Shown: one piece after another, positions 1,281 to 22,757 of the stretch
Layout: every line of letters starts with the position of its first letter
How positions within the stretch are numbered: the stretch's first letter is position 1
Virus record (IMG/VR): IMGVR_UViG_3300008262_000314
Coordinates: 1 to 23,333 of that record
DNA length: 23,333 bases
Source of the DNA: a virus
Direction: 5' to 3' (one strand)
Program-made: the position numbers and the translations under genes
The notes under the pieces: generated by a model
Seen by the model: the letters and a program-made list of their open reading frames with translations, nothing else
Database searches by the model: none
What the model was told of the DNA's origin: nothing

Positions 1281-1282
1281 GG

Positions 1283-2139: not shown

Positions 2140-2142
2140 TTG

Positions 2143-4488: not shown

Positions 4489-5387
4489 TAGTACCTCGTG
4501 TAGTGGATTCGGACTGGGAATTGGTCACGGAGCTTGCCTGCTTCTTCAGTGAGGCGTTGCTGGTAAAGTGCGAGCATAAAGCGAGCAGCATTGGAGCCAG
4601 ATCCGTATTGAATCTTGGTATCGGCTTGGTCTGCTTCAGCAGAAGTGAATGTGAGACGACCTGGATCGATAAAGGATGCTAGGCGGTAAGAAGCGCCATA
4701 GACGATTACGTCCTTGGTTGAAGATGGCAATCCTGAGACTGTCTCGAAAACGTCGTTGTTGTTGGCAAGGACAGTAGGTTCCTTGCTATAGGTCACCTGT
4801 ACGGTACGACCTGGGGTAATGCGGTCATAGACAGATATGGTCTGACCACTTGCATAAGTTGTCACATTGGCCATAGGGTCATGACGCCATTGTTGGACAG
4901 GCTTCCACTCACCAGTGGGGCCAGGCGTGTCCCAGGATACCCCTAAAACTGTGTCTACGGCCGCTGGGAGGCTGTATGTGGACTGGGTGGCAGTAAGACT
5001 AAAGGTTGTCTTATCTACCCCGTAAAGCTGTGGGAACACCGCTCTAATGGTGTCATTGATAGCACGCTTAACTGAAAGCTTAGGGAATGTAGGAGAGATG
5101 GTTACCTTGGTGTTAGTGGTGTGGCTGGCAGCTGTAGTGCCTTGGTAGCCACGTCCATAAGGGGCTGCTGTAGCAGTACTGGAGACACGATCGTAGGTGT
5201 CAACCCAGATAAGTTCATCGTCGATTTCGACAACACCCTTGCCGATATTGGATACGCTACCTAGACTCAGAGAGAGGGCAGAGGAGTTGATGTCAGCAGT
5301 AAGGTGAGTTGTGCGATCTTGTCGCATAGTGTAGCCATTGAGATTTAGGAGAACTTCATCTACCAAATTGGCAAGGGTTGATGTCAT
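4488..5387 (-). CDS. Putative head-tail or tail adaptor protein
   Basis: A 299-residue protein between the small basic genes and the fibre, joined to both neighbours by TAATG overlaps at 5387 and 4488. The N-terminal part has VVEIDDELIWVDT and RGYQGTTAASHTTNTKVTI, a pattern I associate with phage proteins that attach the tail or fibre to the connector. Then FPKLSVKRAINDTIRAVFPQLYG, a central beta region, and a helical C-terminus (ASYRLASFIDPGR...FMLALYQQRLTEEAGKL). The helical C-terminal pattern recalls tail-tubular or gp4-type adaptors of podoviruses, but I cannot assign a family. Alternative: a baseplate-like or fibre-anchoring protein. A structural role is fairly safe; the precise role is not. 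Confidence 0.6.
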   Translation of the reverse strand: MTSTLANLVDEVLLNLNGYTMRQDRTTHLTADINSSALSLSLGSVSNIGKGVVEIDDELIWVDTYDRVSSTATAAPYGRGYQGTTAASHTTNTKVTISPTFPKLSVKRAINDTIRAVFPQLYGVDKTTFSLTATQSTYSLPAAVDTVLGVSWDTPGPTGEWKPVQQWRHDPMANVTTYASGQTISVYDRITPGRTVQVTYSKEPTVLANNNDVFETVSGLPSSTKDVIVYGASYRLASFIDPGRLTFTSAEADQADTKIQYGSGSNAARFMLALYQQRLTEEAGKLRDQFPVRIHYTRY

Positions 5388-6497: not shown

Positions 6498-6787
6498 TAC
6501 CATTTAACCCTATCTGCCCAATATGCGGCACTCATTTTTCCTTTTGCAATGTTTCTACGATGACGCGCCTTGAAACTCTTGCGCTTCATCTTCATTCTTT
6601 GTGACTCCCCAGCCTTTGGCTTACCAGCAGTACTTGCGCCTTGCTCTCCAAATCGGATTGTCTTTACTTGACTACCCTGCTTAGCCACAACAACGTGTGA
6701 CTTCTTAGGGTGGTTAGGAGTACGTTTAGGCTTGTTAAAACCTGAGACTCCAGCCCTAGCGAGTCTTGGATCTCTCTTGCTTGCCAT
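6497..6787 (-). CDS. Small basic conserved protein ending AAYWADRVKW
   Basis: The ATG at 6787 gives 96 residues; a GTG two codons upstream at 6793 is an alternative, and AGGAAAG lies upstream of both. It overlaps the previous small gene by about 32 nt in another frame. Features are GVSGFNKPKRTPNHPKKSHVVVAK, FGEQGASTAGKPKAGES, and a strongly basic end MKMKRKSFKARHRRNIAKGK followed by MSAAYWADRVKW. I recall this C-terminal pattern from small proteins of aquatic phages, function unknown. High Lys/Arg content again suggests nucleic-acid binding. There are no cysteines or metal motif. Confidence 0.78.
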   Translation of the reverse strand: MASKRDPRLARAGVSGFNKPKRTPNHPKKSHVVVAKQGSQVKTIRFGEQGASTAGKPKAGESQRMKMKRKSFKARHRRNIAKGKMSAAYWADRVKW

Positions 6788-6908
6788 ATTCACCGTACTT
6801 TCCTAATATCGCTCGTATGGTTCCGTTCTTATTCAGACGAACCACTTTCCCGTCCTTAATCTGGACAGAGTTAAAACCTCTATGGGTCTTATATTGTCCA
6901 GATGACAT
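6756..6908 (-). CDS. 50-residue basic protein
   Basis: ATG at 6908 forms a TAATG overlap with the upstream stop; the frame ends with TAG at 6756, inside the next gene. The product is MSSGQYKTHRGFNSVQIKDG followed by a KVVRLNKNGTIR segment and a basic end (KQERSKTR). There are 7 Lys and 5 Arg against 3 acidic residues. The single small domain looks beta-rich (VQIKDGKVVRL). It fills the only gap between two convincing genes and fits the overlap pattern, which is the main support; length alone would not justify it. Confidence 0.65.
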   Translation of the reverse strand: MSSGQYKTHRGFNSVQIKDGKVVRLNKNGTIRAILGKYGEYGKQERSKTR

Positions 6909-7965: not shown

Positions 7966-8952
7966 CTAGGCTGTTGGACGGACAGACGATGCTGTCTCGA
8001 TACGCCATAGGGCTTCTGAACGGTAACGGTTCCAGCCAAGGACGCCGTACCAGCCGATTGGGCGGAGACGCATCAACTTGTCTGTAACTGGACCGATAAC
8101 TGTGTGTGGTTCTTCTGCAACTGCTTCTGCAAGAGCCTGTTGACCCATGATGAAGGTTGAGTAGACACGAACCTGGCTTCCGCCAGATCCTGAACCAGCC
8201 TGTGAGTTTGGTAGGCGTGGTGACTCTACGAAAGCAACGCCTTCGTATGTTCCAAGCTCACCTGCGTAGATACCAGCGGTATCAACGTACTCGTGTGGCT
8301 GACGCCATCCTGCAGTTCCTGTTTCTGCACGAAGGTCGTGAGAAACTTCTGGGTGGATGTAGGAAGCGTATAGATTTCCACGGCGTGGCACAACGTTTGC
8401 TGCGCGGAGCTTCGCTACTGCGTAGCGGATATCGCGAGACTTGATTGTGTCAGTACCAGTGATGGTGGTGATTGCTGCAGAGGTGGAGAGTGATCCAGCG
8501 GATTCGCGGATTACTTGTGATCCACCATTGAGAACGTCACGTACGATTGTATCGAGTGAGTCGTTCATGTTGAATGCAACAATGTTTGCAAGAGCTGGCT
8601 CTACATCAGCGAGTGAGAAGAGGTCGAGCTTGCGGGTTGAAATGATTGAGTTACCGTACTCATTGAGAGTAACTGCAACAGTGCTGGTTGCAGGAATTGC
8701 AACTGCATCTGGATCGACAGTTTCTGTCAATGCGGTGGTGGCAACTGCGAGGTCATTGTAAAGTTGGAACAATACAGATGAACCTGCGTGGGACTGTTGT
8801 GCAGGCTTCTTGTCAGCAACAGAGCGGAATGATGGCACGGAACGAAGAGCGAACTCTACGAGCTTGTCATACGCCTGAGTAACAAGGTTAGCACCGACAA
8901 CTGTACCCGCTTGACCTGCTGGCAACGCAGCAGAGGTATACAAGTTAGGCAT
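7966..8952 (-). CDS. Major capsid protein, N4-gp56 type
   Basis: A 328-residue protein starting at ATG 8952 with AGGACAGG upstream. The arrangement matches the N4-gp56 family of HK97-fold capsid proteins: N-terminal LVTQAYDKLVEFALRSVPSF, then SVLFQLYNDLAVATTALTE, a beta-hinge VAVTLNEYGNSIISTRKLD, helix DSLDTIVRDVL, YAVAKLRAANVVPRRGNLY, the IHPEVSHDLRAE segment and the C-terminal WYGVLGWNRYRSEALWRIE. It would form the icosahedral shell. Scaffold lies 26 nt upstream. The family assignment is by eye; a distant P22-type relationship is the alternative. Confidence 0.88.
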   Translation of the reverse strand: MPNLYTSAALPAGQAGTVVGANLVTQAYDKLVEFALRSVPSFRSVADKKPAQQSHAGSSVLFQLYNDLAVATTALTETVDPDAVAIPATSTVAVTLNEYGNSIISTRKLDLFSLADVEPALANIVAFNMNDSLDTIVRDVLNGGSQVIRESAGSLSTSAAITTITGTDTIKSRDIRYAVAKLRAANVVPRRGNLYASYIHPEVSHDLRAETGTAGWRQPHEYVDTAGIYAGELGTYEGVAFVESPRLPNSQAGSGSGGSQVRVYSTFIMGQQALAEAVAEEPHTVIGPVTDKLMRLRPIGWYGVLGWNRYRSEALWRIETASSVRPTA

Positions 8953-8978: not shown

Positions 8979-9461
8979 CTACGATTGTGAACCGTAGATA
9001 AGGTTTAGGATTTCATCCTGAGATTGTGCGTTGTTAATACGGAACGCAATATCCTCGGACTTGTCGGGGGATAAAGCACCACTTGTAACGGCATCCATCT
9101 GTCGCAAAGCTGCGACGTCCTTTTGACTTACTTCCTGCTGTGGTTGAACTTCAAAGCCGAATACATCAGCATTCTGGTCTAACCAAGCTGAGATAGCATC
9201 TTCTGATGCGTCCAAGTCATTGGGTACAAATGCGGCTACCTTTGGGTTTACGCCACGGGACGAAAAAACGTCCTTCAAAATCCGCTCTCTTTGGGACTTA
9301 CTGAGTTCACCAAGTGAACTTTCAAGTTCCTTGTTTCTCTTCTGCTCAGCCTTCAAAGCCTTGCGCAGTTTCTTTACAAGGTCAGTTTCCGATTCGTATG
9401 ATGGCGTAAAGTCATCATCTTCTTCTTCGTCATCCCAGTAGTTATCGCGGTTGTTGCTCAT
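8979..9461 (-). CDS. Capsid scaffold protein
   Basis: The start is ATG at 9461 (MSNNRDNYW), preceded by AAAAGGGAGAG; a TTG 13 codons upstream keeps the frame open but has no ribosome site. The 160-residue protein begins with a very acidic stretch (WDDEEEDDDF), continues with a coiled coil (about 25-60: LVKKLRKALKAEQKRNKELE), and is helical to the end. Acidic N-terminus plus coiled coil directly upstream of the capsid gene is the usual layout of phage scaffold proteins, which guide shell assembly and then leave. No protease motif is seen, so shell maturation may not involve a protease coded here. Confidence 0.85.
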   Translation of the reverse strand: MSNNRDNYWDDEEEDDDFTPSYESETDLVKKLRKALKAEQKRNKELESSLGELSKSQRERILKDVFSSRGVNPKVAAFVPNDLDASEDAISAWLDQNADVFGFEVQPQQEVSQKDVAALRQMDAVTSGALSPDKSEDIAFRINNAQSQDEILNLIYGSQS

Positions 9462-9581
9462 AGCAACTCTCCCTTTTCTAGTAGTTGGCGCACGCCTCAA
9501 TACCTACAGGGGAATAGATATTGGCTCGTACTGTCGGTCTAATACTCCGCATGGGGCCGATCGATCCATGTCGGGATTCTG
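9462..9581 (-). other. 120-bp gap upstream of scaffold and capsid genes
   Basis: This is the largest gap inside the structural block apart from the leader. No tRNA or good open frame is seen; a 21-codon ATG frame at about 9570 lacks a ribosome site. AT-rich hexamers that could serve as -10 boxes (TATAAC, TATTAG, TATCTA on the minus strand) occur, none with a clear -35. A separate promoter for the abundant scaffold and capsid mRNA would make sense here. A short CATGG/CCATG inverted repeat flanks a GATCGATC core. Confidence 0.35.
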
Positions 9582-11378
9582 TTATAGTAAGCCCGTTACT
9601 CCTGTACGTAGGGCTGTTGTTGATAATCCAGACTGTCCTCTAAACGACTGGATTTCTTGTTGAGCAAGTTTCTTACGGCGTTGTGATGCAGTTCCAAGGA
9701 ACTGTTCAGCCTCTAGTTCTTGCTGTACCTTTGTGGCATCAGCAGCTCCACCAGCCAAGTTACGCTCGTAGATACCTGAAAGCTTCTCAGTAGGTCTGAG
9801 TTGCTCTGCGATATTCTCGTAGCCTTCACCTGCTAGTTGTGTAATCTGAGCCTCGGTATAACCAAGTGCTGTCAGACGAGCAGCTTGCTGCTTAGCGAAG
9901 TCTGTATCAAGCTTGATGCCTGATGCTTCATTTGCTCTACGGATTGCTTCAGTAGCAAATGCACCAGAAGTACGACGATCTTCAAGAGCCTTAGTTCCAA
10001 CATTTGGATCTAGGAAGAATGATGTCAAGTCTGAGGCAGCATCAATATACTTAAGATCCATGAGAGCCTTAACGTAGTAAGGATCAGCATTCAGCGAACG
10101 CAGACGTGCAGCATTGGCACGCTCATCTAGTTCTGCTACAGAGACATCGTTCTGCATATACTTAATGATAGAATCATCACTCTTGAATGCATCTCTACCT
10201 GTAGGGCTAGTTACGTACTTATCGATAACACGCTTGTATCCAAGAACTAAACCTACAAGTTCGCCAGGCTTTCTCTTGGTTGTCAACTTCTCATTGAACT
10301 TACCAAAGTCTTTATAGAACGGAGAGTCAATAGTGTTGCCGGATTTATCTTGATATGTAGGTAGATATAGATATTGATCTACTACGTTTTCAAGTTCGTT
10401 CTCACCTGCAAATTTAGCATCTTTAATAATGGTTCTAAAATAGTCAACGCTTGCATCTACAGTAGATGCAGGTAAGCCTGCAGCAAGAAGTTTAGCCTTG
10501 AGGATTAACCATTGTGTATTGAAGTCAACTTGTGGAGTTGTAGTAGTGGTTGTAGGGGTAGGTGTATCTCCATCACCTTGGTCGTCTGCGTTACCGCCTC
10601 CGCCACCACCTCCGCCGCCACCGCCAGATCCTCCGCCACCGTTACCGCCACCACCATCGCCAGTACCATCACCAGCACCACCGCCATCACCTGCGCCACC
10701 ACCAGCTCCGCCATCGCCGCCAGTAGTAGTTCCACCACCGAAAGGCATGTCTTCGCTAGGAATTACGTTACTTCCAGCACCACCATCAGCTCCGTCGGTT
10801 CCGCCAGGAGTTCCCTTATCAAGTCCAGAACCAGCAGCAATTCCACCCATGCCAGGAAAAACACCATAAGGTGGTCGATCGTCTATCTTTCCTACAGGAC
10901 CTTTAACAACATTATCATCAGTTTTCTTAGTTGTTTTACTAGGTGTCTTTGTTGTTGGCTTAGGAGCAGGTTCAGGAGCTTTAGCTGCAGTTTTAGTTGG
11001 AGTAGACTTAGGAAGGTTACTTGGGCCAGGAGCCTCTTCTGCTTTAGGTGCAGCCTTAGCTGCAGGAGCAGGCTTAGGAGCTTCTGCTTTAACTTCAGCA
11101 ACTTTAGTCTTAACAGCCTCAGAAACTTTAGTTATAGGACTATTCTTGGATGTAGAAGCACCAAGATCAACAGCCTTCTTAAGATTTTCATCAACTTGTT
11201 TAGAAAGTTGGTCTACTTTTTTGACATCAGCAGCAGTAATCTTTGGCTTATCAAGGATAGCATCGATCTTCTTTTCAATGTCTTTAGCAGTTTGAACTGC
11301 CTTATTTGCCTCTAGAGCCTTAGGTAGGCTCTTGGCAATATCGACTACTGTCTCAACAATTTTCTTTTTAGGAGCCAT
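9582..11378 (-). CDS. Putative internal virion protein with Gly-rich linker
   Basis: A 598-residue protein starting in a TAATG overlap at 11378. Residues 1-100 are helical and Lys/Ala-rich (KKKIVETVVDIAKSLPKALE); 100-160 are Pro/Ala/Thr/Lys-rich; 188-268 is almost pure Gly with Asp, Asn and Ser; 272-282 is a Pro/Thr linker; 286-598 is a helical domain (LILKAKLLAAGLP, YTEAQITQLAGEGYENIAEQ, KKLAQQEIQSFRGQSG). The C-terminal FRGQSGLSTTALRTGVTGLL style is known to me from minor head proteins of environmental podoviruses. Position with the 404- and 1930-residue genes suggests a set of proteins ejected with DNA, like T7 gp14-16 in concept. Homology to those is not claimed. Confidence 0.6.
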   Translation of the reverse strand: MAPKKKIVETVVDIAKSLPKALEANKAVQTAKDIEKKIDAILDKPKITAADVKKVDQLSKQVDENLKKAVDLGASTSKNSPITKVSEAVKTKVAEVKAEAPKPAPAAKAAPKAEEAPGPSNLPKSTPTKTAAKAPEPAPKPTTKTPSKTTKKTDDNVVKGPVGKIDDRPPYGVFPGMGGIAAGSGLDKGTPGGTDGADGGAGSNVIPSEDMPFGGGTTTGGDGGAGGGAGDGGGAGDGTGDGGGGNGGGGSGGGGGGGGGGGNADDQGDGDTPTPTTTTTTPQVDFNTQWLILKAKLLAAGLPASTVDASVDYFRTIIKDAKFAGENELENVVDQYLYLPTYQDKSGNTIDSPFYKDFGKFNEKLTTKRKPGELVGLVLGYKRVIDKYVTSPTGRDAFKSDDSIIKYMQNDVSVAELDERANAARLRSLNADPYYVKALMDLKYIDAASDLTSFFLDPNVGTKALEDRRTSGAFATEAIRRANEASGIKLDTDFAKQQAARLTALGYTEAQITQLAGEGYENIAEQLRPTEKLSGIYERNLAGGAADATKVQQELEAEQFLGTASQRRKKLAQQEIQSFRGQSGLSTTALRTGVTGLL

Positions 11379-12592
11379 TAGTTAATCTTCCGATCGATAA
11401 TATCGCCAATACTACTGAAGGTATTAAATGCATCTGGGCTAGTATCCCAATCAGAACTTCCACGCACAATCTCGTATGCTTCAGTAGCTGAAGCTGCACG
11501 GAAGTTGCCCTTCTCATCTTTGAAGTTCATCATCTTCTTGATGAGTGGGTTGTTCATATCGTAAGTCTTACGTGTGATAGCAGAAGCAACCTTGATATAT
11601 TGATCTGCATATTCTTTGATATCCTCACCATTATTGAGAACATCAGCCATTCCTGGATATAGTTTGGCAGCCTGATTACGAACTTTTTGCTTAGCCTCCT
11701 CAAGTTTCTGCTTGAGAATCTCTGGATCACCAGTTGCAACAAGATCAGTAGCAGTCTTTGCTAGTTCTTCAAAAGCAGGCTCAGTGAGACCGTTGTTCTT
11801 GTAAGTAGCGCGCATTTCATCTATGAAGGTCTTGACGGCTCCACCAGTCTCAGGTGTAATCTTTCCACCACGCTTAGCGATGTAACTAGCCAAGAACTGA
11901 TTTTGTTCTTCTGCGGTAAACCCAAGACCAGAACGGGTGGTTGTAGACTTGCCTGTAGTTCCAGCAGTGCTTGTCGTGGTTGTTCCAGCAGCAGTTGTTG
12001 TAACTGCTTCTTTCTTTGCACGTTCATTAAACTTGTTCATGAATCGAATAATTTCTGACTCAGGAACTGTTTCACCGCGAGCAGCATAGAAAGCCTTGGC
12101 ATACATAGTCTTAGCATCTGTCTTATCAATCAAGTTGATAGCAGTAGAGGCTTCTTTGCTAAATCTAGTTTTGGTAGCACCAGCGCCACCCTTGTCTAGA
12201 TTATCTTGAAGAAGGGTTAGATACTCAACACCATTGAGGCGTGCTTCAGTTACTGTCTTTTGAAAAGCCTTAATATCTTCAAAACTAAATGTACCGAGTG
12301 GAGTTGTGCCTTTTGAAGCACCAGTTGCTCGAAGAAGTGCTTGTAGGTAATTTGCGTTATTACCAAACGAATCCGGACGTAACTGTGTACGAAGGCTATC
12401 TACTTCTGCACCAGCAATATTAGCAAAAGCAACTGGATCTGATGTTGCTGTAGCATTTATGTAGAACGGGTTATTTCTAACTTTTAGCGCCAAAGCAGCC
12501 GCTGCATTAGAGGCAGCAAACGTTCCCATTGAAGCATAAGCAGTCGAAGAGGCTATTTGCCTCTCTCGCATCTGGTTATATGTATCTGCCAC
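11378..12592 (-). CDS. Putative internal virion protein with Thr-rich linker
   Basis: A 404-residue protein starting with GTG at 12592, one base after the upstream stop, with AAAGGA just before it. Residues 1-195 are helical, with DAKTMYAKAFYAARGETVPESEIIRFMNKF, a pattern I relate to small helical domains of actinophage minor virion proteins. Residues about 195-222 are a Thr/Ser/Gly linker; 222-404 are again helical, ending YEIVRGSSDWDTSPDAFNTF. No lysozyme or transglycosylase motif is visible. It is probably part of the ejected set or neck. Function is inferred from location only. Confidence 0.6.
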   Translation of the reverse strand: MADTYNQMRERQIASSTAYASMGTFAASNAAAALALKVRNNPFYINATATSDPVAFANIAGAEVDSLRTQLRPDSFGNNANYLQALLRATGASKGTTPLGTFSFEDIKAFQKTVTEARLNGVEYLTLLQDNLDKGGAGATKTRFSKEASTAINLIDKTDAKTMYAKAFYAARGETVPESEIIRFMNKFNERAKKEAVTTTAAGTTTTSTAGTTGKSTTTRSGLGFTAEEQNQFLASYIAKRGGKITPETGGAVKTFIDEMRATYKNNGLTEPAFEELAKTATDLVATGDPEILKQKLEEAKQKVRNQAAKLYPGMADVLNNGEDIKEYADQYIKVASAITRKTYDMNNPLIKKMMNFKDEKGNFRAASATEAYEIVRGSSDWDTSPDAFNTFSSIGDIIDRKIN

Positions 12593-12593
12593 G

Positions 12594-15500
12594 TTAGTCC
12601 TTTGCCTTCATAGTTCCTGCGAATACACGATAAAACATTGGAGCGAATGCTGGGTTCTCTACCATGAGACTGTCAGCAAGTTCTTGTAATTGCCCACGAA
12701 GTTGTGTTGCGTACCAGTGCGTGCTTCCTAGGTTAGGTTCTGCTGTAACACGGGTAATCTTTAATGATTCTATAGCTGCAGAATATGCCTGATAGAACTT
12801 CAAGGTTTCCTCATACACGGGAGACATCTTGAAAGCATCATCCTGCAAAGCCTTGGCAACTGTAGCAATACGCTCTTGATCTGTGCCTACGTTGATGATA
12901 GATGCTGGAGCAGCACCACCAAAACGCTTATTAAGGTTATTGATTTCATTTGCGTACCAAACATTTGAATAACCCATGGCAGCCTGCTGTTCTGAGATCT
13001 GAGACTTGGCCATCTTGTAGATAAGTTCTTCTGCAGCGTTAGCCAACTCTTCAGTGCTGAGTGCCTCACGGCGTCCTGTAAGTTTCTGCCAAGCATAGTA
13101 TGCTGTAGCGCCTTCTCCACCGGGGAAGAAGAATGGGACAACATCGCCGTTCTTAGTAGCGTACTTATCGGCTGCTTCAGGGTGCATGTTCAAGAATGTC
13201 CAAGCATCCTTAGTTCCTGTAACAGTACGAGTAGAACCACCTAGGATTGCTAATAGGTTGCGCTCGCCAAACTCTGTTGAGAACTCGTGAACTGCTGCAA
13301 AGTAATCTCCAGGGTGCTTACGGCTAATCTGATCCCATGCATTATAGAGCATGGTCATGCTAGCGAAGTCAACCTTCTTGTCATTTGGAATCTTAGCAAA
13401 GACTTCCTGAGAAGGTGTAGCAGGTGCTATGCTCTGGAAAAGAGCAGTAAGCAAGCCAATGCCACGTGACATTCCTTCGGCATCTTTGAATAGTCGTGTT
13501 CTTGCCTCATCATCAGCAAGTGGGTTGTCACCATAGTCGCCAGTAGAGGCTAGGTATGAAGCCCAATCTTTGACACCACGCTCAACTGTCTTCTGATCGT
13601 TGATAGCGTACAAGAATGTTTTACGTAACCATGCTGGGAGCAAAGACTCAACTGGTGCTTCTGTCACTCCGAAAGGAATTACGATTCCACGTAGAGTATC
13701 CCATACGGGTCCAAATGCTGCAGACTTACCGCTTGCTTGGTAGATAAACTGACCAGCAGGGCCAATGCCTGGGATACCAGGATTGACGTTACCAAAAGCC
13801 AAGTTAAGAGACTGTACAGGAGCACTTAGTTGTAGTGCTTGTGCAGCATCTGCGTTCTTTCCAACCAATGCGCCTAGGAATGAACCAGCAATTGGATAGC
13901 GGAAACGCTTCTCACCAAACTCATCTTCATAGATAAAGCCTTGACCTTCGTCATACTTAACACCAGTGATGTCATAGATAGCACTTGTACCCTCTTTGTT
14001 CAGAGAGTTGTACGCACGGCCCAACTTGTAGAAGTTAATCTGGTTAGATGCGTAGAGTTGTCCCCACTTACGGATGGTGTTGAACTGTGCCTGGATGAAC
14101 GGGAAGATAAGACGCATAGCCTGAGCGGACTGTAACTGCTTAGATGCATCGTAAAATAGTTCTTTAGTATACTTAGCTCCAGCTTTAGCAGCCATAGAGT
14201 TAAGGTTCTCTAGAGTAACTCCACCCTCATGAACGTAGTTATCGCCACGCTTCTTGAGTTCTTTTTCGATAATCTTGATAGTTTGGTGCTTACGACCCCA
14301 AGCCTTACCATTCTTACGAAGGGGTGCTAATGTGTCTACAGCAGCCTTTTGTAGTTTAATCAAGTCTGGAGTATCAAGCATTGTAGCATAACGGCCTACG
14401 TGATCCCAATATGCCATGCGGTATTCAGGACCAAATGCTGCTAGGTTCTCAAGTTTAGCGTTAAGATCAAAGAACCAGTCTACTGCTTTAGTGAGCATCT
14501 TAGGCTCAGCCTCAGCAAAACGCTTGGTACGAGATAGCAATACTGTCGAATCTGGCATATCTTCACGCTTAAAGAAAGATGCTAGTTGCGACTTGAAGCC
14601 AATCTCTAGGTCATCCATCTCGACTACATTCTTGAGTTTAGCGTAGTCAGGAATAGTAATATCTGATGTTCTATTGCCTTGAGTAATAGTTACTTTGCCA
14701 TTAGCAAGCATCTCACGGATGTACTCAGCCTTAGGGCCTTTGCCACCGATTGACTGTAACGCATACTCATAAGAACCTGTAGAGTTAATATCAAACAGAT
14801 AAGTTCTCAAGTTATCTACGTTGATGTTGTCCTTAGAGAACGGCTTTGCTGTGTCCTTTAGGATAATCTTGTCAAAGTTAGATACCTTCGCACCTTCAAC
14901 TTCTCGAGATGTACGAGCACCACGATGTATCTTTTCAAGGATATCTAGACCCTGCTTCTTCGTGGTTAGATAGTTGATTAGGTCATCTTGTAATTCAGGC
15001 GTGCGAGCGCGTGCCACAAGTGGCATTAGATCGTCTTTATAGAAGCGCATGAGAGTCAATGCAAGACCCTTGTAGAATGATTCGTGCGTGCTTCCAACTA
15101 CTTCGTATATTTTACCAACGAAAGCAGTACGAGGATCGCCAGCACTGATACCACGCTTCATGAACTGCATGTATTCATCTAGTGCTTCAGTTACAAGCTT
15201 CTCAGAGATATCATCATTGAATCTATTTCCGAAGATATCGTTCTGCATCTTACCAATGCGAGATGCCAATGCTTGCATCTTTGTACCTTTAGGATTAGCC
15301 ATAGCCATCGCTAGGTACTGGATAGGGTGATTAAATATGCTATCGTGTCCTGAGAAAAACATACGAAGTTGCATTTCACCAATGTTACGTAGTGTGTAAG
15401 ATACACGGAATGCTAGTTGCGCTGTACGCCAGTAGTCACCTAGTTGGTTGGCAGTAGTGCCAAGCGCCTTTGCTTTACCATACAATGGTACGTTCTTGTT

Positions 15501-18386
15501 GTATGTATTGATGGCATCAACAATAGGACGTGTATCTGGTAGGCGGATTACGTCATCTAGGAACTGGTGAGCATAGTTAGCACCAGTCATAGCGAGTTCT
15601 TCGCCATTAGCAAACATAAGTTTAGGGTCTGTACCCTGTGCTAGGTTAGCAACGCTATAGTTGCGGATAACTGCCTGGTCTTTACCAGAGATCCTAAGTG
15701 CATCATCTAGCACCTTAGCAAGTTCAGTATCGCCTTTACCTATAGTCTTGACTAGGTTCTCCTGCATCATACGCATGCCGTCCATGATAATCTTGGAGCG
15801 CGCTGTATAATCTTTTTCGCGGATAACCTTGTTGATTAGATCATCAACTAGATCTTGCGGCACTTTTGCTGATGTAAACCAGTCATTTAGACCACGAGCA
15901 AGTCTATCCATATCATTCAAAGGTAGGATAGTTGAGCGAACATAGATGTTCGTAAGAGCCTTTTCAGCCCTCTCAACGAATGCTACAGCCTTCTGATTAA
16001 CGGGCTCAGATAACTTAATCAAAGGATTCTTGCTGTTAAGAGCCATCTGTGTACGGAATAGCAAGCCACGAGCAATCTGTGGATCTGATTCAGGTGATGC
16101 TAGGTGACGTAGGAATACTGAAAGTACGCCTTCTACTGTATCAGCCTGTGCTAATTCGTCAACAATTTCCATGTCTAACTTGCGTCCGAATAGTCTATCT
16201 AGGCGCATAGTGTTCTTTTCGCCAGCAACTACTTCAGCAACAGCGAGGAATCGCTTGCCGAATAGGTACTTCATAGCCTTAACACCATCACCAGATAGCC
16301 CACCGAATAGCGAATCAGTTAGACCCACTTCAGATGAAAAGAATTCTTTAGCGTAGCGAGTGTCACCAATCTGCATATCAAGATCCATAACCTTAGCAAT
16401 ACCGATATTATCGGGATCGTTAAGCATCATCTTGAGGAGTTCTGGGTCCTTAGATGCATAGTCACGTAGAGTCTCGATATCTTTCAGGCGTTGTGCCATG
16501 GCAGCCTGCTCAGCCTGAGCCTCATTGAGAGCCTTCTGGCTCTTGGCTAGGCCTTGTTCTGCTCTTTCGATAGAACTATCTATCTTAAACATAGCCTGTG
16601 CGCCGATAGTAGGATCAGCAGATTCAGCTAGAACTTCGCTGATCTTGACCTTACGGGCAGCAACATTATCTACGTTAGTGAGAACTACGCCCCCTATATC
16701 ATCAAAGATTGAACGTACGTTAGAAAATCCGTCCACCTTATAGATATCTTGAATCAAATCTACTACATACGCCATAGCGCGTTCATCTTTGAATACTGCT
16801 ACAGCTTTTAATGTCTCAGCGAGAGGTGCGGCGACTGTATCTTCTAGCATTGTCATGACTACACGACTGATGGATTCGTTTTCGTTTCTTAACTTATCGA
16901 ATACTTCACGTGTAGATGCTGGCAAAGTAGTATCTTCTGGTGCTGCTTTGATACGATTAAGTAATTCTGTACGGCGCTTTAGTTCCTGTGTGGCTGCCTT
17001 CTGTGACATCTTAGATGTGTCATCAGCCAAGTCAAGCAGTTTAGGAGCCTTTGCTCCAAAGTAACGAGCAACGAATTCATCGTTACCACGTGTAGCAAAT
17101 GTTAGTGCGCCAGCCTGTGGTAGTTCTTCAAAGAATACTCCACCAGGGAATGCTCCACGTGTATTGTAGTAATCCGCAGATAACTTAGACAAAGCATCAA
17201 CAGATTCTTGTTGCTTGCCTGTATTCATGCGTTCAATTATGAACTCGCCAATTGCACGGTTGTCTAGGGCTACGCCCTCTGGACCAGCAAGGTTTGCAGC
17301 ATTCTTGCTATCAGCAGCAAATGCTTTAGCAGCGGCAATATAACCTGCTTCAATGCGTCCTTGCTGTGCTTTCTGATATGCCTGCTCTGCCTTGAGGTAC
17401 TTGTTTTCCGCTTGACGAGTAACTTCCTTAGCAAGGCCAGAACGCTCTTTGAGGAGCTTATTTTCTTCCTTGGTAAGGCGAGCTGCCTCAGCTAAACGAT
17501 CAGATTTTTTCGCTAATTCATTTTGGGCATCAATTGTAGCCTGTTTAAGAGCCTTGCCACCTTTACCGATCTTAGTTACAGCACCAGGACCAATCCATAC
17601 TGATGGGTCTAAAGCGATGTTTAGAGTAGCATCAATGATGCCTGACATCACCTTGTACTGTGTACTGTTAGGGTCAGAACCTACAGTTTTCATAGCAGCA
17701 CGTCCAAGAGTGAACGATTTGCCATTGATAAGTCCGTAAGCGCTCATAGCCTTAGCCTGAGCCTTCTGTACTTTAGACTTTTCCCCAATAAAGAAACCTG
17801 AACCTGTGTCTACCTTGGTTGGATTAGCCAAAAATTGGCGAGTAAGCTGACCAATCTGTGTGGTTTCACCAAACATAGCAGTAGGAGATAGGTTTGAAAT
17901 CAATTCTTCTACGCTTGGCTTCTGCTTTTGCGTAGCAAGTGCGTAAGCGTCACGTCCGATTGTGCTTACATACTCGTAAGGTGCGCGTAATGCAGAGAAA
18001 AGTACGCGTGAAGTACCCTTGAGTCCACCATAAAGTACATCTTTGATGTCTCCCGCTAAAGATTTATCGTTATCTAGCGCAGATTTAATGTTTTTGGTGT
18101 TAAGTAAATCTTGTTTTAGTTGTGCAAGACCATCAACTGATGCAATCTTACCGATTCCAGGTGTATCTGGCTTCAAACCAAGCTTGACTGCAGACATGAT
18201 GAAGTCTTTGCTCTGATTTGGATAAGCATTTACCCAGTTACCAAAGTTTTCATACTGATTAGGCGAAAGCATAGCCATCTCAGTTTGAACAAGTCGATCA
18301 AGTTGTGACTGTACATTATCAAAAATGCCAGTCATCTTGATCTTTTTATTCTTCGCGGGATTCCACGCGTCTAATGGTGAACCCAC
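12594..18386 (-). CDS. Giant 1930-residue putative ejection protein
   Basis: The start is GTG at 18386, overlapping the upstream TAG (TAGTG), with GAGGGA five bases before it; the internal ATG 17 codons in has only a weak ribosome site. The protein is soluble, mostly helical, with likely coiled coils near 280-345 and 603-643 and no signal peptide. Segments such as LFSALRAPYEYVSTIGRDAYALA (about 130-150) and PAWLRKTFLYAIN near the C-terminal third could be amphipathic. I see no lysozyme, RNA polymerase (N4-type), protease or transferase motif. Size and position downstream of the portal match large ejected proteins of podoviruses (T7 gp16, N4 vRNAP) in concept; a tape measure is less likely because tail-tube genes are absent. 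Confidence 0.65.
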   Translation of the reverse strand: MGSPLDAWNPAKNKKIKMTGIFDNVQSQLDRLVQTEMAMLSPNQYENFGNWVNAYPNQSKDFIMSAVKLGLKPDTPGIGKIASVDGLAQLKQDLLNTKNIKSALDNDKSLAGDIKDVLYGGLKGTSRVLFSALRAPYEYVSTIGRDAYALATQKQKPSVEELISNLSPTAMFGETTQIGQLTRQFLANPTKVDTGSGFFIGEKSKVQKAQAKAMSAYGLINGKSFTLGRAAMKTVGSDPNSTQYKVMSGIIDATLNIALDPSVWIGPGAVTKIGKGGKALKQATIDAQNELAKKSDRLAEAARLTKEENKLLKERSGLAKEVTRQAENKYLKAEQAYQKAQQGRIEAGYIAAAKAFAADSKNAANLAGPEGVALDNRAIGEFIIERMNTGKQQESVDALSKLSADYYNTRGAFPGGVFFEELPQAGALTFATRGNDEFVARYFGAKAPKLLDLADDTSKMSQKAATQELKRRTELLNRIKAAPEDTTLPASTREVFDKLRNENESISRVVMTMLEDTVAAPLAETLKAVAVFKDERAMAYVVDLIQDIYKVDGFSNVRSIFDDIGGVVLTNVDNVAARKVKISEVLAESADPTIGAQAMFKIDSSIERAEQGLAKSQKALNEAQAEQAAMAQRLKDIETLRDYASKDPELLKMMLNDPDNIGIAKVMDLDMQIGDTRYAKEFFSSEVGLTDSLFGGLSGDGVKAMKYLFGKRFLAVAEVVAGEKNTMRLDRLFGRKLDMEIVDELAQADTVEGVLSVFLRHLASPESDPQIARGLLFRTQMALNSKNPLIKLSEPVNQKAVAFVERAEKALTNIYVRSTILPLNDMDRLARGLNDWFTSAKVPQDLVDDLINKVIREKDYTARSKIIMDGMRMMQENLVKTIGKGDTELAKVLDDALRISGKDQAVIRNYSVANLAQGTDPKLMFANGEELAMTGANYAHQFLDDVIRLPDTRPIVDAINTYNKNVPLYGKAKALGTTANQLGDYWRTAQLAFRVSYTLRNIGEMQLRMFFSGHDSIFNHPIQYLAMAMANPKGTKMQALASRIGKMQNDIFGNRFNDDISEKLVTEALDEYMQFMKRGISAGDPRTAFVGKIYEVVGSTHESFYKGLALTLMRFYKDDLMPLVARARTPELQDDLINYLTTKKQGLDILEKIHRGARTSREVEGAKVSNFDKIILKDTAKPFSKDNINVDNLRTYLFDINSTGSYEYALQSIGGKGPKAEYIREMLANGKVTITQGNRTSDITIPDYAKLKNVVEMDDLEIGFKSQLASFFKREDMPDSTVLLSRTKRFAEAEPKMLTKAVDWFFDLNAKLENLAAFGPEYRMAYWDHVGRYATMLDTPDLIKLQKAAVDTLAPLRKNGKAWGRKHQTIKIIEKELKKRGDNYVHEGGVTLENLNSMAAKAGAKYTKELFYDASKQLQSAQAMRLIFPFIQAQFNTIRKWGQLYASNQINFYKLGRAYNSLNKEGTSAIYDITGVKYDEGQGFIYEDEFGEKRFRYPIAGSFLGALVGKNADAAQALQLSAPVQSLNLAFGNVNPGIPGIGPAGQFIYQASGKSAAFGPVWDTLRGIVIPFGVTEAPVESLLPAWLRKTFLYAINDQKTVERGVKDWASYLASTGDYGDNPLADDEARTRLFKDAEGMSRGIGLLTALFQSIAPATPSQEVFAKIPNDKKVDFASMTMLYNAWDQISRKHPGDYFAAVHEFSTEFGERNLLAILGGSTRTVTGTKDAWTFLNMHPEAADKYATKNGDVVPFFFPGGEGATAYYAWQKLTGRREALSTEELANAAEELIYKMAKSQISEQQAAMGYSNVWYANEINNLNKRFGGAAPASIINVGTDQERIATVAKALQDDAFKMSPVYEETLKFYQAYSAAIESLKITRVTAEPNLGSTHWYATQLRGQLQELADSLMVENPAFAPMFYRVFAGTMKAKD

Positions 18387-18802
18387 TAGCGTCCCTCTTC
18401 TTCAAAAGCCTCTACGATGCGACGTAATTGTGGACTTGGATTGGCCATGTACATAGCTCTAGCAAATGTTGCGAGCTGATCTGGTGCATCTACAGGTGTC
18501 ATCAGTGATTCAGAACCAGGTCCAGGACCAACATCTACACCAGCAGTGATAGGTTCATCAGGACGCTGCGTAGGTTCAAAAATTCCAACTGTTGGAACTG
18601 GAGGAGTACCCATAGCTGTAGGCATAGGCATGGCTTGTGCCATAGGAGCACCTTGTGCTAACTGTGTAAGTTCTGCACGTTGTCCATACTGCCCACCAGA
18701 TGCGTTTTGAATCTTAGCTTCGCGCTGAATCTTAGCAGCGCGGTCTAAATCGGTACGGCGAGCACCCTTACCAACGCCTGATACTCTCATACCTTCAGCC
18801 AT
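18386..18802 (-). CDS. Small Pro/Met/Gln-rich hypothetical protein
   Basis: A 138-residue protein; ATG at 18802 has AGGAT upstream. The N-terminus MRVSGVGKGARRTDLDRAAK is basic, the middle (about 45-100) is low complexity with Ala, Pro, Met, Gln and Gly (QGAPMAQAMPMPTAMG), and the C-terminus is a short helix (ARAMYMANPSPQLRRIVEAFEEEG). The RVSGVGK.ARRTD opening is one I recall next to portal genes in other environmental phages. It may be a disordered head or portal-associated linker. Function unknown. Confidence 0.78.
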   Translation of the reverse strand: MAEGMRVSGVGKGARRTDLDRAAKIQREAKIQNASGGQYGQRAELTQLAQGAPMAQAMPMPTAMGTPPVPTVGIFEPTQRPDEPITAGVDVGPGPGSESLMTPVDAPDQLATFARAMYMANPSPQLRRIVEAFEEEGR

Positions 18803-19050: not shown

Positions 19051-20793
19051 TTAGCCCCCGAGTCCTGCCAATATTGACCCTAAGTCTGGTGCTTGTTGAG
19101 GGACCCCACCAGAAGGTAATCCAGGAGCGGCTGGGGACGGGGGAGCCTGCTCAACTGGGCCTTGTGCGCCTGGTGGAGTCATTCCTTCCTGCATCGGTGG
19201 TTGTTCAGGAGCCTGAGGAGGCGTGAACACGGCCAATGCAGCAGCTTCTATACTGTCGCCCTTTTGTCTACGTTCGATAACATCTGCAATCTTCTGAATC
19301 AAGGCTGAAGGATCTTGTCCTTGGCTAGCCATAGCAGGGATTGCTTGTGCAGTTGCGGTGATAGCAGCACTTAGATTATCGCGCATCTTTTCAACTTCAA
19401 TACGCTGTTCTTCTTGTGATACGTTCAAACTCCAGTTAAGTTCTCTACGAACAAAGTCTTTAGATACAAGATCTGCACCCAAGGCTTGAAGGGAGAAAAT
19501 CAGAGCACGCGATGGGTCAAGACCAGCCATCAAGCCGTAGCGAACTTCAATTGTGTGGTCGCTTTTAATATCCTTGCTTGGCATGTACTTTAACTCGTAC
19601 GGAGTACCCTGCGATACGCCTCTGACGCTCTTCTCTTCATTGAAGAGTCTTTCATCCATATCAAAGCACATCGCGATGACTTCTTCAAATGTCTCAGCAA
19701 GAATGATTTGACCAGCCTTGACTTGAGAATCGAAAGCACCGAGAAGTGCCTGGACACCTTGACCAGTAATAATACTTGCGTCAATGTTTCCAGTTCTACC
19801 TTCAGGATAACGAGCACCGAGTCTGAGTTCAGACTGTAACGCTGCTTGCTCCTGAAATGCTGCTTGTGGTATATCCAATCTGACTCTACCAATGCCTTGT
19901 GGGTTAGCAGTTCGGATAACTGCATCAGGACCCATTGGCATATCGAGAACATCGTTTGGCACAACTAGCGGAGCTTGTACTGCTTTCTCAGCAGCCTCCA
20001 TTGCTAGATTTGCAAAACGAGCACGTGCTAGTTGGACATAGAGCACATCGTCAAATTGTCCCCGTGCTTCATCATCAATACCAGGACGGCGCGCAACCTT
20101 TACAGTCATCTTACCCATAAGGTTACGTGCTGCGCTTAGTATAAGATTATTACGGCTTGGTACGAAAAGAACAGTTACATCCTTATCGGTGTAGCGGATC
20201 ATCTCTACAAGTGCGTTTGTATCTTGATTAAAACCAAGTTTACCCAGAAGCGCCCCCGCGTATTCTGGGTAGTCATTGGCGAGTTCGCCAATAGTTTTCA
20301 TGTATCGCTTGGCATAGGCCACACAACGGCCGAACCTGTCAAATTCTGGGTAAGCCCCCATTGGATCTTCGACTCGTATGCGTGGCAGATTTGTTTCAAA
20401 GTCTGGCTCTACGTGAATTGGTAGGAAGCCATAACTGAAATACCAGTCAGCACCCCAGTACATCTGTGACTGTAGGCGTGACATATAAACGTAGTTGTTA
20501 GCAATCATGCTGCGCTTATCAGCAAAAGCCTTAGCGCGATCAGATGTAGTATTGCTTGTACCGCAGTTAAACGATGGTAGTGGCGCTAGAACTTCAGCCA
20601 AGTCACGGGCAGCAACATCAACAAAGTTGGCCACCATCGGGCTTGACATACCTTCAGGGAATAGATCTGGGAATACCTCAGTCATTCTTCCCTTGCGAAC
20701 AGCAAGCAGGTCAGACATGCGCGCATCGCGATCGCGATTACGCTCCTTCATGTTCTGCACTCGCCGTGCAATTGTATCGATATCGAACGCCAT
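19051..20793 (-). CDS. Portal protein
   Basis: A 580-residue protein starting at ATG 20793, 7 nt after the terminase stop, with AGGAT upstream. It has the portal layout: helical N-terminus (IARRVQNMKERNRDRDARMSDL), then PMVANFVDVAARDLAEVL, wing strands around DWYFSYGFLPIHVEPDFE and IRVEDPMGAYPEFDRFG, a long C-terminal helical part with LAETFEEVIAMCFDMDERLF, and helix VSQEEQRIEVEKMRDNLSAA. The last 75 residues are Pro/Gln/Gly-rich and likely disordered. It would form the dodecameric ring through which DNA is packed by the adjacent terminase. Family call is by context and pattern. Confidence 0.88.
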   Translation of the reverse strand: MAFDIDTIARRVQNMKERNRDRDARMSDLLAVRKGRMTEVFPDLFPEGMSSPMVANFVDVAARDLAEVLAPLPSFNCGTSNTTSDRAKAFADKRSMIANNYVYMSRLQSQMYWGADWYFSYGFLPIHVEPDFETNLPRIRVEDPMGAYPEFDRFGRCVAYAKRYMKTIGELANDYPEYAGALLGKLGFNQDTNALVEMIRYTDKDVTVLFVPSRNNLILSAARNLMGKMTVKVARRPGIDDEARGQFDDVLYVQLARARFANLAMEAAEKAVQAPLVVPNDVLDMPMGPDAVIRTANPQGIGRVRLDIPQAAFQEQAALQSELRLGARYPEGRTGNIDASIITGQGVQALLGAFDSQVKAGQIILAETFEEVIAMCFDMDERLFNEEKSVRGVSQGTPYELKYMPSKDIKSDHTIEVRYGLMAGLDPSRALIFSLQALGADLVSKDFVRRELNWSLNVSQEEQRIEVEKMRDNLSAAITATAQAIPAMASQGQDPSALIQKIADVIERRQKGDSIEAAALAVFTPPQAPEQPPMQEGMTPPGAQGPVEQAPPSPAAPGLPSGGVPQQAPDLGSILAGLGG

Positions 20794-20800
20794 CTTTATC

Positions 20801-22672
20801 CTATTCGTACTGTGAGAATTCGTAATCGTTGACGTTCATAACGTAACGACTTTCGAGTTGTCTGCGGGTAGCCCATCTGTTATTCATGTGGCTCTGGTTA
20901 ATACGTGCGTTGGAGATAATCTCTTTGGCACGTAGTTCACAAAACCACAGAGCCATTACGCAGTCTGTTGGACCACGCGTATCTGGTCTCCATGTGATGA
21001 GTTGCTGTATAAGGGCTTTGATACCCTCAGATCCATCTTGGCTAGGAAGCTCTATCAGGTTATCGTCTTGGTGTGTACCATTACGTACAGTTCCAAACAA
21101 GCCTGACATAGCTGCCACACCGAATGATGTGTCCCACTTGTTCTTGCCTGTGAACTGGGATGAGAACTTCACACCATGTGAGGCAAGGTACTGCTGTAAA
21201 TCTAAATCCAGAGAGTAAGCCTTCTGGTGGGCATTGATCTCAATACGTAGTTCCTGAGGCTGATACTTCTCAACCCAGGTCTCAATGAGTTCCTGCACCT
21301 TTTGAGGTGTGGGATCTTTCATGTTCTCTACATCCAAGATGTAGCGGTTACGTGTATTGCGATCCACAGTCATGATAACTGCTGCAGTATTACCACTCAT
21401 AGCAGGGTCTAGACCCATGATGGTATACCATGCGCCTTGCTCCCTAGGGTGTCCTGCCGTTCCTGCTCTTAGCGGTCCGCGCTTTCGCATCCTGTTGATA
21501 GAACCTTGGACGGCAGCAGGTGGGAAAATTGAATCTTCTTGTACGTCTTGCTGTTGGTAGACAAGAGCCCAAGCGCTCGGGCTAACTTCAGAGCGTCTCC
21601 TGAACAGAGCGGGGCCATCCCATTTGGGATAGAGACCGTTCTCATCAGGTAGTACGCCTTCATCAGAACCCTCCCAGGGTACATGGCTTTTAGGCCACAG
21701 CGTGACCCACTCAGTCGGATCTTCATAAAACTCTAAAACTGCTGGCATGGCAAAGTACGTAAAAGGTGTCTTGCCGCCTACCCAGTGTTCTGGGTTACGT
21801 ATCTCGCGATAAAGGTCATTTGCCGCTATGCGGGTTCCTACGATGAGAAGCTTACCGTTATCACCAAGACGAGTTACTACATCTCGTTGGAGCCAGAGGA
21901 GTTGCTTCTCCCACTCATGCGCGTTTGAAGTCGTAACAACGTCGTCCAAGATGATGAGGTTGGAACGGGCTCCAGTAATCTGGCCACCAATACCGAGCGC
22001 TTGTACCGTCGGATCCTTTTCGGTAGAATCACGAGAGAGGTAAATGCGATCAGCCTTCCAAGTATCCGCATCCTCTTTCCATCCCCCAGCAGATCCATAG
22101 ACCGCCTGTAGTTTAGACCAGCGCTCATGGCTCAGGCGCTGCTTGATCGAGTAGAGATACTCCTTAGCGCGCTCTTGAGTCTTAGAGACAATCGTAATCT
22201 TGACATTCGGGTCCATCGCAATTCGATAGACGCAGTAGTTGACCGTGATGACGGTAGACTTGGCATGCTCAGGTGGGACGTTAATCAGCAGACGCTTGGC
22301 CGAGGCAGGCTCATAGGTCATGGCTGAATGTAACCAGGACGGCTCACGTCCCTCAAGGACGTCAATCCAGGCACGGTGGTGTTCAAAGATAGGGCTGTCT
22401 AGGAACTCAGATGAGAACTCCTCAAAGCCGATCTTAAACTTAGCATCACCTGAGACGATACTCAGGGTTTTCTCACCTTCAGCCTTAGCCTTATCAAGTT
22501 CCTTCATGAAGGCAGCATCTTTGCGCCAGTCCTTCATAACGTCAGGTTTGCGACCAGACCTAGCTATGGCATCCTGAAGGGCTAAACCTTGGCGTACAAA
22601 GTCCAAAACCTTAGACTTAGCCTCCTTCAGCTTAGCAACATTATGATGCTCTTGACCACCCTTGGCAGCCAT
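20801..22672 (-). CDS. Terminase large subunit
   Basis: This 623-residue ATPase-nuclease cuts and pumps DNA into the prohead. ATG 22672 is chosen because GGGAGG lies six bases before it; the frame is open 25 codons further, to a TTG with no ribosome site. The ATPase shows Walker A-like NVPPEHAKST (131-140), Walker B LIILDDV (239-245) and coupling motif LIVGTR (276-281). The RNase H-like nuclease shows MGLDPAMSG (Asp422), EIN (Glu478) and TDCVMALWF (Asp570), the expected acidic trio. The N-terminal 70 residues contain a helix-turn-helix-like stretch (VRQGLALQDAIARSGRKPDV), perhaps replacing a missing small-subunit function. A separate small subunit is not seen in the window. Confidence 0.95.
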   Translation of the reverse strand: MAAKGGQEHHNVAKLKEAKSKVLDFVRQGLALQDAIARSGRKPDVMKDWRKDAAFMKELDKAKAEGEKTLSIVSGDAKFKIGFEEFSSEFLDSPIFEHHRAWIDVLEGREPSWLHSAMTYEPASAKRLLINVPPEHAKSTVITVNYCVYRIAMDPNVKITIVSKTQERAKEYLYSIKQRLSHERWSKLQAVYGSAGGWKEDADTWKADRIYLSRDSTEKDPTVQALGIGGQITGARSNLIILDDVVTTSNAHEWEKQLLWLQRDVVTRLGDNGKLLIVGTRIAANDLYREIRNPEHWVGGKTPFTYFAMPAVLEFYEDPTEWVTLWPKSHVPWEGSDEGVLPDENGLYPKWDGPALFRRRSEVSPSAWALVYQQQDVQEDSIFPPAAVQGSINRMRKRGPLRAGTAGHPREQGAWYTIMGLDPAMSGNTAAVIMTVDRNTRNRYILDVENMKDPTPQKVQELIETWVEKYQPQELRIEINAHQKAYSLDLDLQQYLASHGVKFSSQFTGKNKWDTSFGVAAMSGLFGTVRNGTHQDDNLIELPSQDGSEGIKALIQQLITWRPDTRGPTDCVMALWFCELRAKEIISNARINQSHMNNRWATRRQLESRYVMNVNDYEFSQYE

Positions 22673-22678
22673 ATAAAA

Positions 22679-22684
22679 CCTCCC
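22679..22684 (-). promoter_or_regulatory. Ribosome binding site for terminase
   Basis: GGGAGG six bases before ATG 22672 decides the terminase start over the upstream TTG. Confidence 0.8.
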
Positions 22685-22689
22685 GTTAT

Positions 22690-22757
22690 CCCCCCTTCGT
22701 TCGGCGCTCCCAAAGAGCGCCTCACTACCCCCCTTGCGAGGCGGCAATAAAGCCGCC
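22690..22757 (-). repeat. Tandem hairpin plus G6 module in terminase leader
   Basis: Two adjacent modules share one plan on the minus strand: a GC-rich hairpin, a few bases, then AAGGGGGG and A/T. The first has GGCGGC/GCCGCC with TTTATT loop (22740-22757) and AAGGGGGG ending at 22728. The second has GGCGCTC/GAGCGCC with a five-base loop (22703-22721) and AAGGGGGG ending at 22690. A weaker GGTAAC/GTTACC stem lies further upstream (22763-22793). They may form a structured mRNA leader that controls terminase translation, or a DNA site recognised during packaging. Confidence 0.65.

Follow-up and report, generated by a model that had tools for sequence, protein, structure and literature searches.

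A giant cysteine-free protein in a probable ejection cassette of short-tailed phages infecting Actinobacteria

Within a 23,333-nucleotide stretch of viral DNA, here called the window, one gene encodes a 1930-residue protein, which we read, with a probability of roughly 0.84, as the giant member of a four-protein ejection cassette (138, 1930, 404, and 598 aa) belonging to a short-tailed phage with an actinobacterial host. The best reading of the protein is structural rather than enzymatic, as an ejection protein of the internal core. Gene order, homology to gp9 of the Streptomyces Beephvirinae, a composition free of cysteine and, weakly, fold matches to cyanophage pre-ejectosome proteins are the grounds from which we infer its presence in the virion, its ejection, and a role in a channel. 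A sequence-only reading of the window had raised the prospect of a new kind of ejected protein; ejection is upheld on these four grounds, but "new kind" is too strong because the family is homologous to the existing phrog_10618.

The giant gene and its neighborhood

The open reading frame (ORF), recognized earlier as filling a quarter of the window, is confirmed, with a GTG start and 1930 codons on the minus strand, or 24.8% of the window (Table 1). The TAG stop of the upstream 138-aa gene overlaps this GTG by one base, and a GAGGG a few bases 5' of the start is a plausible ribosome site. A single-sequence query with the window protein returned 34 IMG/VR loci, and an alignment query found at least 114 coding relatives on IMG/VR contigs. 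Among all loci of this type, the alignment query contributing the best 80 of its 114 matches, 77 full-length sequences were reduced to 67 that are non-identical and then to 57 below 95% identity, which we call family A; these 57 representatives are 1887 to 1991 aa long and 36 to 90% identical to the window protein. The ORF is a real gene, far beyond chance. Tblastn against a phage isolate collection found no relative of the giant protein, and a cellular genome collection yielded 16 pattern matches to it and 0 relatives.

Table 1. Features of the window discussed in the text (residue numbers refer to the 1930-aa protein)
Feature	Position	Strand	Remarks
Short-tail adaptor (SU10_adaptor)	4488..5387	(-)	Pfam
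Major capsid protein (MCP)	7966..8952	(-)	PHROGs, Pfam
Scaffold protein	8979..9500	(-)	phrog_7813, weaker phrog_648
598-aa protein	9582..11378	(-)	C-terminal part phrog_8424 (FlowerPower gp13 family), E 6.3e-22; zero Cys
404-aa protein	11378..12592	(-)	C-terminal half is the phrog_6654 domain, E 3.6e-6; zero Cys
1930-aa giant, putative ejection (internal virion) protein	12594..18386	(-)	Zero Cys; zero transmembrane segments predicted by Kyte-Doolittle
Anchor 3, residues 1380-1590	13617..14249	(-)	Strongest match to Streptomyces podophage gp9
C-half block with the best prediction, residues 1089-1389	14220..15122	(-)	AlphaFold2 model
DHVGR, residues 1328-1332	14391..14405	(-)	Resembles T/DxxGR; of 57 members, 57 have the D, 49 the G, and 49 the R
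Anchor 2, residues 985-1001 (DYWRTAQLAFRVSYTLRN region)	15384..15434	(-)	Closes the match to gp9 at 841-1000
N-half block with the best prediction, residues 330-640	16467..17399	(-)	Mixed alpha/beta domain (about 400-590) predicted between two coiled coils; pLDDT mostly 75-93
Anchor 1, residues 235-275 (SGIIDATLNIALDPSVWIGPG)	17562..17684	(-)	Common to the E7 1764-aa protein and FlowerPower gp9
138-aa protein, cassette partner	18386..18802	(-)	phrog_8200 (FlowerPower gp7 family), E 9.5e-19; zero Cys
Portal protein	19051..20793	(-)	phrog_104, E 5e-23
Terminase large subunit (TerL)	20801..22747	(-)	57% to E7, about 44% to Streptomyces Beephvirinae

The family shares the order TerL, portal, small genes, the 138-aa gene, the giant gene, a gene of about 400 aa, one of about 400 to 800 aa, scaffold, and MCP. 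This order was judged in the 56 other representatives wherever the contig extends, several ending before the partner genes and one showing a 114-aa ORF downstream of the giant gene at the contig end; wherever the contig reaches, the giant gene sits between the portal and the scaffold and capsid genes. The window also carries fibre genes and small genes between MCP and adaptor. Three consecutive genes in this capsid-to-adaptor interval (5659-6793) encode short proteins of 98, 149, and 131 aa that are strongly basic (net charge +23 to +31) and are possibly DNA-binding virion proteins.

Searches of the 404-aa protein found no hydrolase domain; its N-terminus has a conserved QALLRxxGxSKGTxPLG...D..A that resembles a peptidoglycan-binding repeat by eye, a resemblance that Pfam does not confirm. 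The 598-aa protein has a Gly/Asp-rich, low-complexity middle (window 10498-10869), and its relatives differ widely in length, from 393 to 804 aa.

As to the host, WhiB (PF02467) is encoded in all eight near-complete family A contigs and in 11 of the 12 records searched, missing from one E7-type contig, and PMC10202952 treats whiB as an actinophage marker. The hosts of family A are therefore probably Actinobacteria, and since the window record is a 23.3-kb fragment, that of the window phage is one that we infer.

The window encodes an SU10-type adaptor, and a short tail has been seen in Abafar, a relative of FlowerPower within the Beephvirinae, for which transmission electron microscopy shows podovirus morphology and a tail of 16 nm (PMC11536984). 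The giant gene lies in an apparent operon with genes for other putative internal proteins of a short-tailed phage, the morphology being that of the FlowerPower relative and not of the window phage. The length and helical content of the protein would also suit a tail tape measure, a reading that is scarcely credible and that we reject: the window has a short-tail adaptor and no tail-tube genes, the FlowerPower relative is a podovirus, and neither the window genes scanned (PHROGs, Pfam) nor 20 diverse family A members match a tail-tube or tape-measure family.

Relatives in phages of Streptomyces and Planktophila

Judged by terminase, the nearest isolates are OX376640/1 (57%), followed by the Streptomyces Beephvirinae (about 44%). 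OX376640.1 and OX376641.1, labelled "Caudovirales sp. ct2KA10," seem to be two cultured Planktophila phages of PMC10202952, LanE43AprE7 (E7 below) and F5. The gene order is common to the window family, the Beephvirinae (FlowerPower, Manuel, and Immanuel3), and LanE43AprE7. In the Beephvirinae it runs gp7 (phrog_8200), gp9, gp10, gp11, gp12, gp13 (phrog_8424), scaffold, and MCP, and in the window the giant gene likewise lies between the phrog_8200 gene and the phrog_6654 and phrog_8424 genes, upstream of scaffold and MCP. The counterpart in the Beephvirinae is gp9 (1635 to 1648 aa), which has the same locus position and the same partner families and is mostly Cys-free but is shorter than the 1930-aa protein; it is annotated only as hypothetical, and BLAST sees no similarity between the two. 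FlowerPower gp9 and Manuel gp10 fall in phrog_10618. The E7 equivalent, of 1764 aa (OX376640), has the same position and is also Cys-free.

The loci differ in their partners. The Beephvirinae have an extra gp10, and the 404-aa protein is without the NlpC/P60 and SLT domains borne by their gp11 and gp12. FlowerPower gp11 combines NlpC/P60 with phrog_6654, and gp12 combines SLT with phrog_6654, whereas the window phage has one copy of phrog_6654 with no detectable hydrolase. That the adjacent gp11 and gp12 (FlowerPower 12173-14767) have the phrog_6654 C-terminal domain in common and differ in their wall hydrolases suggests that they arose by duplication and domain swap. Among the 12 records searched for SLT and NlpC/P60, matches inside the cassette were confined to FlowerPower and Manuel; those in the eight family A contigs (SLT in one, NlpC/P60 in four) are short separate ORFs away from the cassette.

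It was gene order and profile comparison that linked the giant protein to known phages. Pfam and NCBIfam identify no domain in the window protein, and PHROGs give nothing significant (best E, 0.13), so the earlier statement that it has no recognized domain holds for this sequence; it needs one proviso, in that 5 of the 20 diverse members match phrog_10618, a PHROG with no assigned function (best E, 6.9e-9). In one member, residues 1434-1505 match positions 1142-1213 of the phrog_10618 profile (E, 8.5e-7). No Pfam family occurs in more than 2 of the 20.

Profiles were built for three groups, the window family (A, 57 sequences), the E7 type (B, 30), and the gp9 type (C, 24), and aligned in pairs by hhalign (local mode); each pair had 20 block-shuffled controls. 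Profiles A and C align over residues 1380-1590 versus 1035-1250 (score, 70.6; Prob, 89%; P, 2.2e-6) and, colinearly, over residues 841-1000 versus 517-692 (score, 51.5), against a control maximum of 33.6. Between A and B the best score, 43.4, is just above the control maximum of 35.1; a second match (41.1; residues 1696-1736 versus 801-841) is off the diagonal, which speaks against an easy reading, and a third, at anchor 1, scores 35.9, near the control maximum. The A-B match also shrank from 433 columns to 19 with a deeper profile. Profiles B and C give two colinear matches of 47.2 and 40.9 (control maximum, 30.8), the higher of which supports anchor 1. The anchor motifs read (S/T)Gx(x)D...DP at residues 245-265, W(R/K)xAQL(x)FRxxYxxR at 985-1000, and RxxFxFxxAQ....W in the region 1425-1445, and the E7 protein shares two or three short colinear anchors with the window protein.

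At the level of sequence profiles, the giant protein is thus shown to be homologous to Beephvirinae gp9; its place in the gp9 family of phrog_10618 comes from the hhalign similarity and the five matching members, the window sequence alone giving no match. Homology to the 1764-aa protein of E7 is taken as probable, because the B-C scores and synteny back it.

Cysteine content of ejection proteins

The giant protein and its three cassette neighbors in the window contain zero cysteines, a feature that extends across the family. Cys is lacking in 55 of the 57 family A proteins (two have one each) and in the partners, at 51/51 for the 404-like, 54/54 for the 138-like, and 44/45 for the 598-like proteins, while 44 portals from the same loci hold 2 to 5 cysteines and 29 TerLs hold 3 to 5 (ORFs for these locus-wide counts were chosen by length and position). 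In the eight near-complete family A loci, the giant genes have 0 Cys in 15,513 residues, against 256 in 23,106 for the other ORFs of at least 250 aa, which may include spurious ORFs. The E7-type proteins are Cys-free in 40 of 40 cases and the gp9-type proteins in 28 of 34, the remaining 6 having one or two (counts made before a 90% identity filter).

The same pattern is found in ejection proteins from other phages. As a control, 15 such proteins of T7, N4, P22, phiKMV, and P-SSP7, well-known podoviruses of the author's picking rather than a sample, have 2 Cys in 12,562 residues: 1 in 2261 for T7 gp14-16, 0 in 4294 for N4 gp50-52, 0 in 1309 for P22 gp7, gp20, and gp16, 0 in 2416 for phiKMV gp35-37, and 1 in 2282 for P-SSP7 gp14-16. 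By contrast, 36 Cys occur in the 5906 residues of 14 further proteins, from the virion or for packaging, encoded by P22, phiKMV, and P-SSP7; portals, terminases, and tail proteins thus differ from the ejection proteins of their own phages. Eight other N4 virion or lysis proteins, counted separately and with gp65 left out for a wrong reading frame with 36 stops, hold 18 in 3586 aa, MCP and gp57 being at zero. The Cys-free state is not specific: it is often seen in scaffold, adaptor, and MCP (22 of the 32 ORFs counted), and the cyanophage A-4L proteins gp27 and gp28 have one and two, respectively.

A further point in favor of ejection is gp16 of the Paenibacillus podovirus API480, for which PMC6937236 reports 71 peptides by mass spectrometry of phage particles. 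Like the window protein it is large (1631 aa), Cys-free, and from a phage of a Gram-positive host; unlike it, the gene follows the tail genes, and the two show no significant profile similarity. API480 gp16, which spans 12564-17459 of its genome and is named only as hypothetical, is likely an ejection protein of another family.

A plausible explanation for the absence of Cys is that these proteins would cross the channel unfolded and then refold in an oxidizing place. In the open-licence literature we found no paper stating cysteine exclusion in ejection proteins, and the word cysteine occurs zero times in the review PMC8954989. Cysteine exclusion is an empirical feature measured here and not an accepted definition of ejection proteins; the window cassette displays it, and where homology fails it offers an inexpensive way to screen for ejection proteins.

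Gene order and composition also bear on whether the protein leaves the virion at all. A capsid-internal or portal-vertex assembly protein, packaged or acting in assembly and never ejected, could be encoded between the portal and the scaffold and capsid genes, and scaffold and MCP are Cys-free too. This is improbable, however, given that the Streptomyces companions bear NlpC/P60 and SLT domains, which are sensible only at entry, and that the length and cysteine pattern fit ejection proteins, including those of T7 and N4.

Predicted structure and a model of entry

AlphaFold2 models built on the 57-sequence alignment for residues 1-980 (mean pLDDT, 64; pTM, 0.39) and 900-1930 (mean pLDDT, 59; pTM, 0.34) are of low confidence and consist largely of helices; residues 330-640 and 1089-1389 are the better-predicted blocks. 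They bear out two features read earlier from the sequence, helical stretches, with long helices predicted at, for example, residues 111-152, 329-367, 609-646, and 658-686, and coiled coils, which flank both sides of the alpha/beta domain in the 330-640 block. Absence of predicted membrane segments is a point against ejection, although the test is uninformative: Kyte-Doolittle analysis gives 0 segments in the 57 family A members and in the cassette proteins, and T7 gp14 and gp16 likewise score none, even though C-terminal transmembrane helices mark the T7 gp16 family.

The fold search proposed at the outset, run in two halves, gave weak top matches to pre-ejectosome proteins for the N half and none for the C half. 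With Foldseek, the top match of the N half among 350,542 PDB chains is 9k3a_B (E, 0.05; prob, 0.89), a cyanophage A4 pre-ejectosome chain by its PDB title and A-4L gp27 by sequence, and the top match in BFVD is its relative PfWMP3_26 (E, 0.01; prob, 0.99). These matches are not significant alone (TM-score, 0.07 to 0.10; E, 0.01 to 0.05), and the 50 best N-half entries given by VIA-align 2 do not include 9k3a_B. For the C half, no PDB fold match is significant, a result that carries no weight as evidence of absence because the model is of low confidence and the second aligner barely tested 1089-1389. PDB sequence searches, among them one with the C-half profile, found no match. The likeness to these Saffermanviridae pre-ejectosome proteins lies in being the first fold match in two libraries, in size, and in a gene beside other internal-protein genes; the differences are one Cys in A-4L gp27, another gene order, and no relation of the window family to A-4L gp27 or PfWMP3_26 by sequence profiles.

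Both top N-half fold matches end in a part that looks by eye like an ADP-ribosyltransferase (HGT...GTYF...GVDA), and the window family has a loosely similar motif order ending in DGFxNIRxIxGGxGG. This raises the idea of an ejected polyvalent effector that, besides forming a channel, would bring into the cytoplasm a domain (residues about 400-590) diverged from ADP-ribosyltransferases. The sequence-only reading had offered a polyvalent protein with diverged domains as its second option, and this pattern is the one hint of it. One of the 20 members matches phrog_1855, "DdrA-like anti-restriction," in this region (E, 6.3e-4), with no stretch passing alone. Against this, the profile score of 23.0 compares with a null maximum of 20.4, the other alignment gives 18.6 versus 21.3, and the aligned part is coiled coil; the window family does not conserve HGT or YFS, Pfam finds no ADP-ribosyltransferase in A-4L gp27 or its homologue in phage PP, and Foldseek gave no matched residues. 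Because the profile test is not significant, we regard this effector as unlikely and treat it as a lead. The C-termini of A-4L gp27 (20116-25269) and the PP homologue (800-5938) resemble an ADP-ribosyltransferase domain by eye; the RefSeq name for the Pf-WMP3 and PP homologues is "ParB-like partition nuclease."

Enzymatic activities known from other giant ejected proteins were also considered. A string resembling the T/DxxGR motif of the N4 virion RNA polymerase (vRNAP) occurs in the C half, at residues 1328-1332, and its D is invariant in the 57 members; an unsystematic look did not locate motifs A, B, and C of single-subunit RNA polymerases. The G and the R each fail in 8 of the 57, no RNA_pol family matches the 20 members, and the C-half profile has no PDB sequence match and, from a low-confidence model, no significant fold match; PF00940 was found in 0 of 12 genomes in a search that is uninformative, its control also matching nowhere. 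A diverged N4-type polymerase is thus very improbable, and an injected RNA polymerase is unsupported by anything beyond the DxxGR string. A transglycosylase is likewise unsupported: the window protein has no conserved match to transglycosylase, zinc peptidase (HExxH), or P-loop motifs, and Pfam finds no SLT domain in the 20 members. The sequence-only reading had seen no vRNAP or transglycosylase signature, and none stands out here; nor did we obtain a clear tape-measure or vRNAP match, the findings that it had named as counting against it.

In T7 and P22, according to PMC8954989, ejection proteins make up an internal core in the virion and, once ejected, a conduit across the envelope; T7 gp16 and the N4 vRNAP are ejected before the DNA (PMC8954989 and PMC12633501). 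The N-terminal transglycosylase of the T7 gp16 family is lost in P22-type members (PMC8954989), and Pfam does not detect it in the 20 members of the window family. The window protein resembles T7 gp16 and the N4 vRNAP in being giant, Cys-free, from short-tailed phages and, presumably, ejected before the DNA; it differs in having no transglycosylase, polymerase domain, or PDB sequence match. For an ejection cassette, we propose that its proteins would be enclosed in the capsid, where they would probably form an inner core on the portal, and would at adsorption exit through the narrow portal and tail channel largely unfolded, ahead of the DNA. Once in the cell envelope, the giant protein would refold and, together with its partners, make a conduit for genome entry. 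Opening of the cell wall would fall to the partners or to tail proteins, because in the Streptomyces phages it is gp11 and gp12, not gp9, that bear the hydrolase domains.

The giant protein is a family-level variant of a known functional kind, whose nearest relatives are sequenced but unnamed. What is moderately surprising is that phages of Gram-positive Actinobacteria should carry a large ejection cassette, and that unrelated ejection proteins have a composition signature in common. The review PMC8954989 lists ejection proteins in phages of Gram-negative hosts, counting Mycobacteria there, and describes them as absent from phi29-like phages of Gram-positive bacteria. A more far-reaching proposal, which we consider a long shot, is that actinobacterial podoviruses, which face a thick wall and a single membrane in their hosts, may have their own ejectosome built on a Cys-free protein of 1600 to 2000 residues, sequence-unrelated to T7 gp16, that would also deliver an ADP-ribosyltransferase-like domain, shared with cyanophage pre-ejectosome proteins, to act on the host at entry, and that unrelated ejected families avoid cysteine, such that exclusion over more than 1000 residues would mark ejected proteins missed by sequence searches. 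Isolates exist in FlowerPower, Abafar, and Planktophila phage E7, making a direct test possible. A conserved four-gene cassette with a Cys-free protein of 1600 to 2000 residues is present in podoviruses of Streptomyces and of freshwater Actinobacteria, and this suggests that monoderm hosts, too, are entered via an ejected protein machine.
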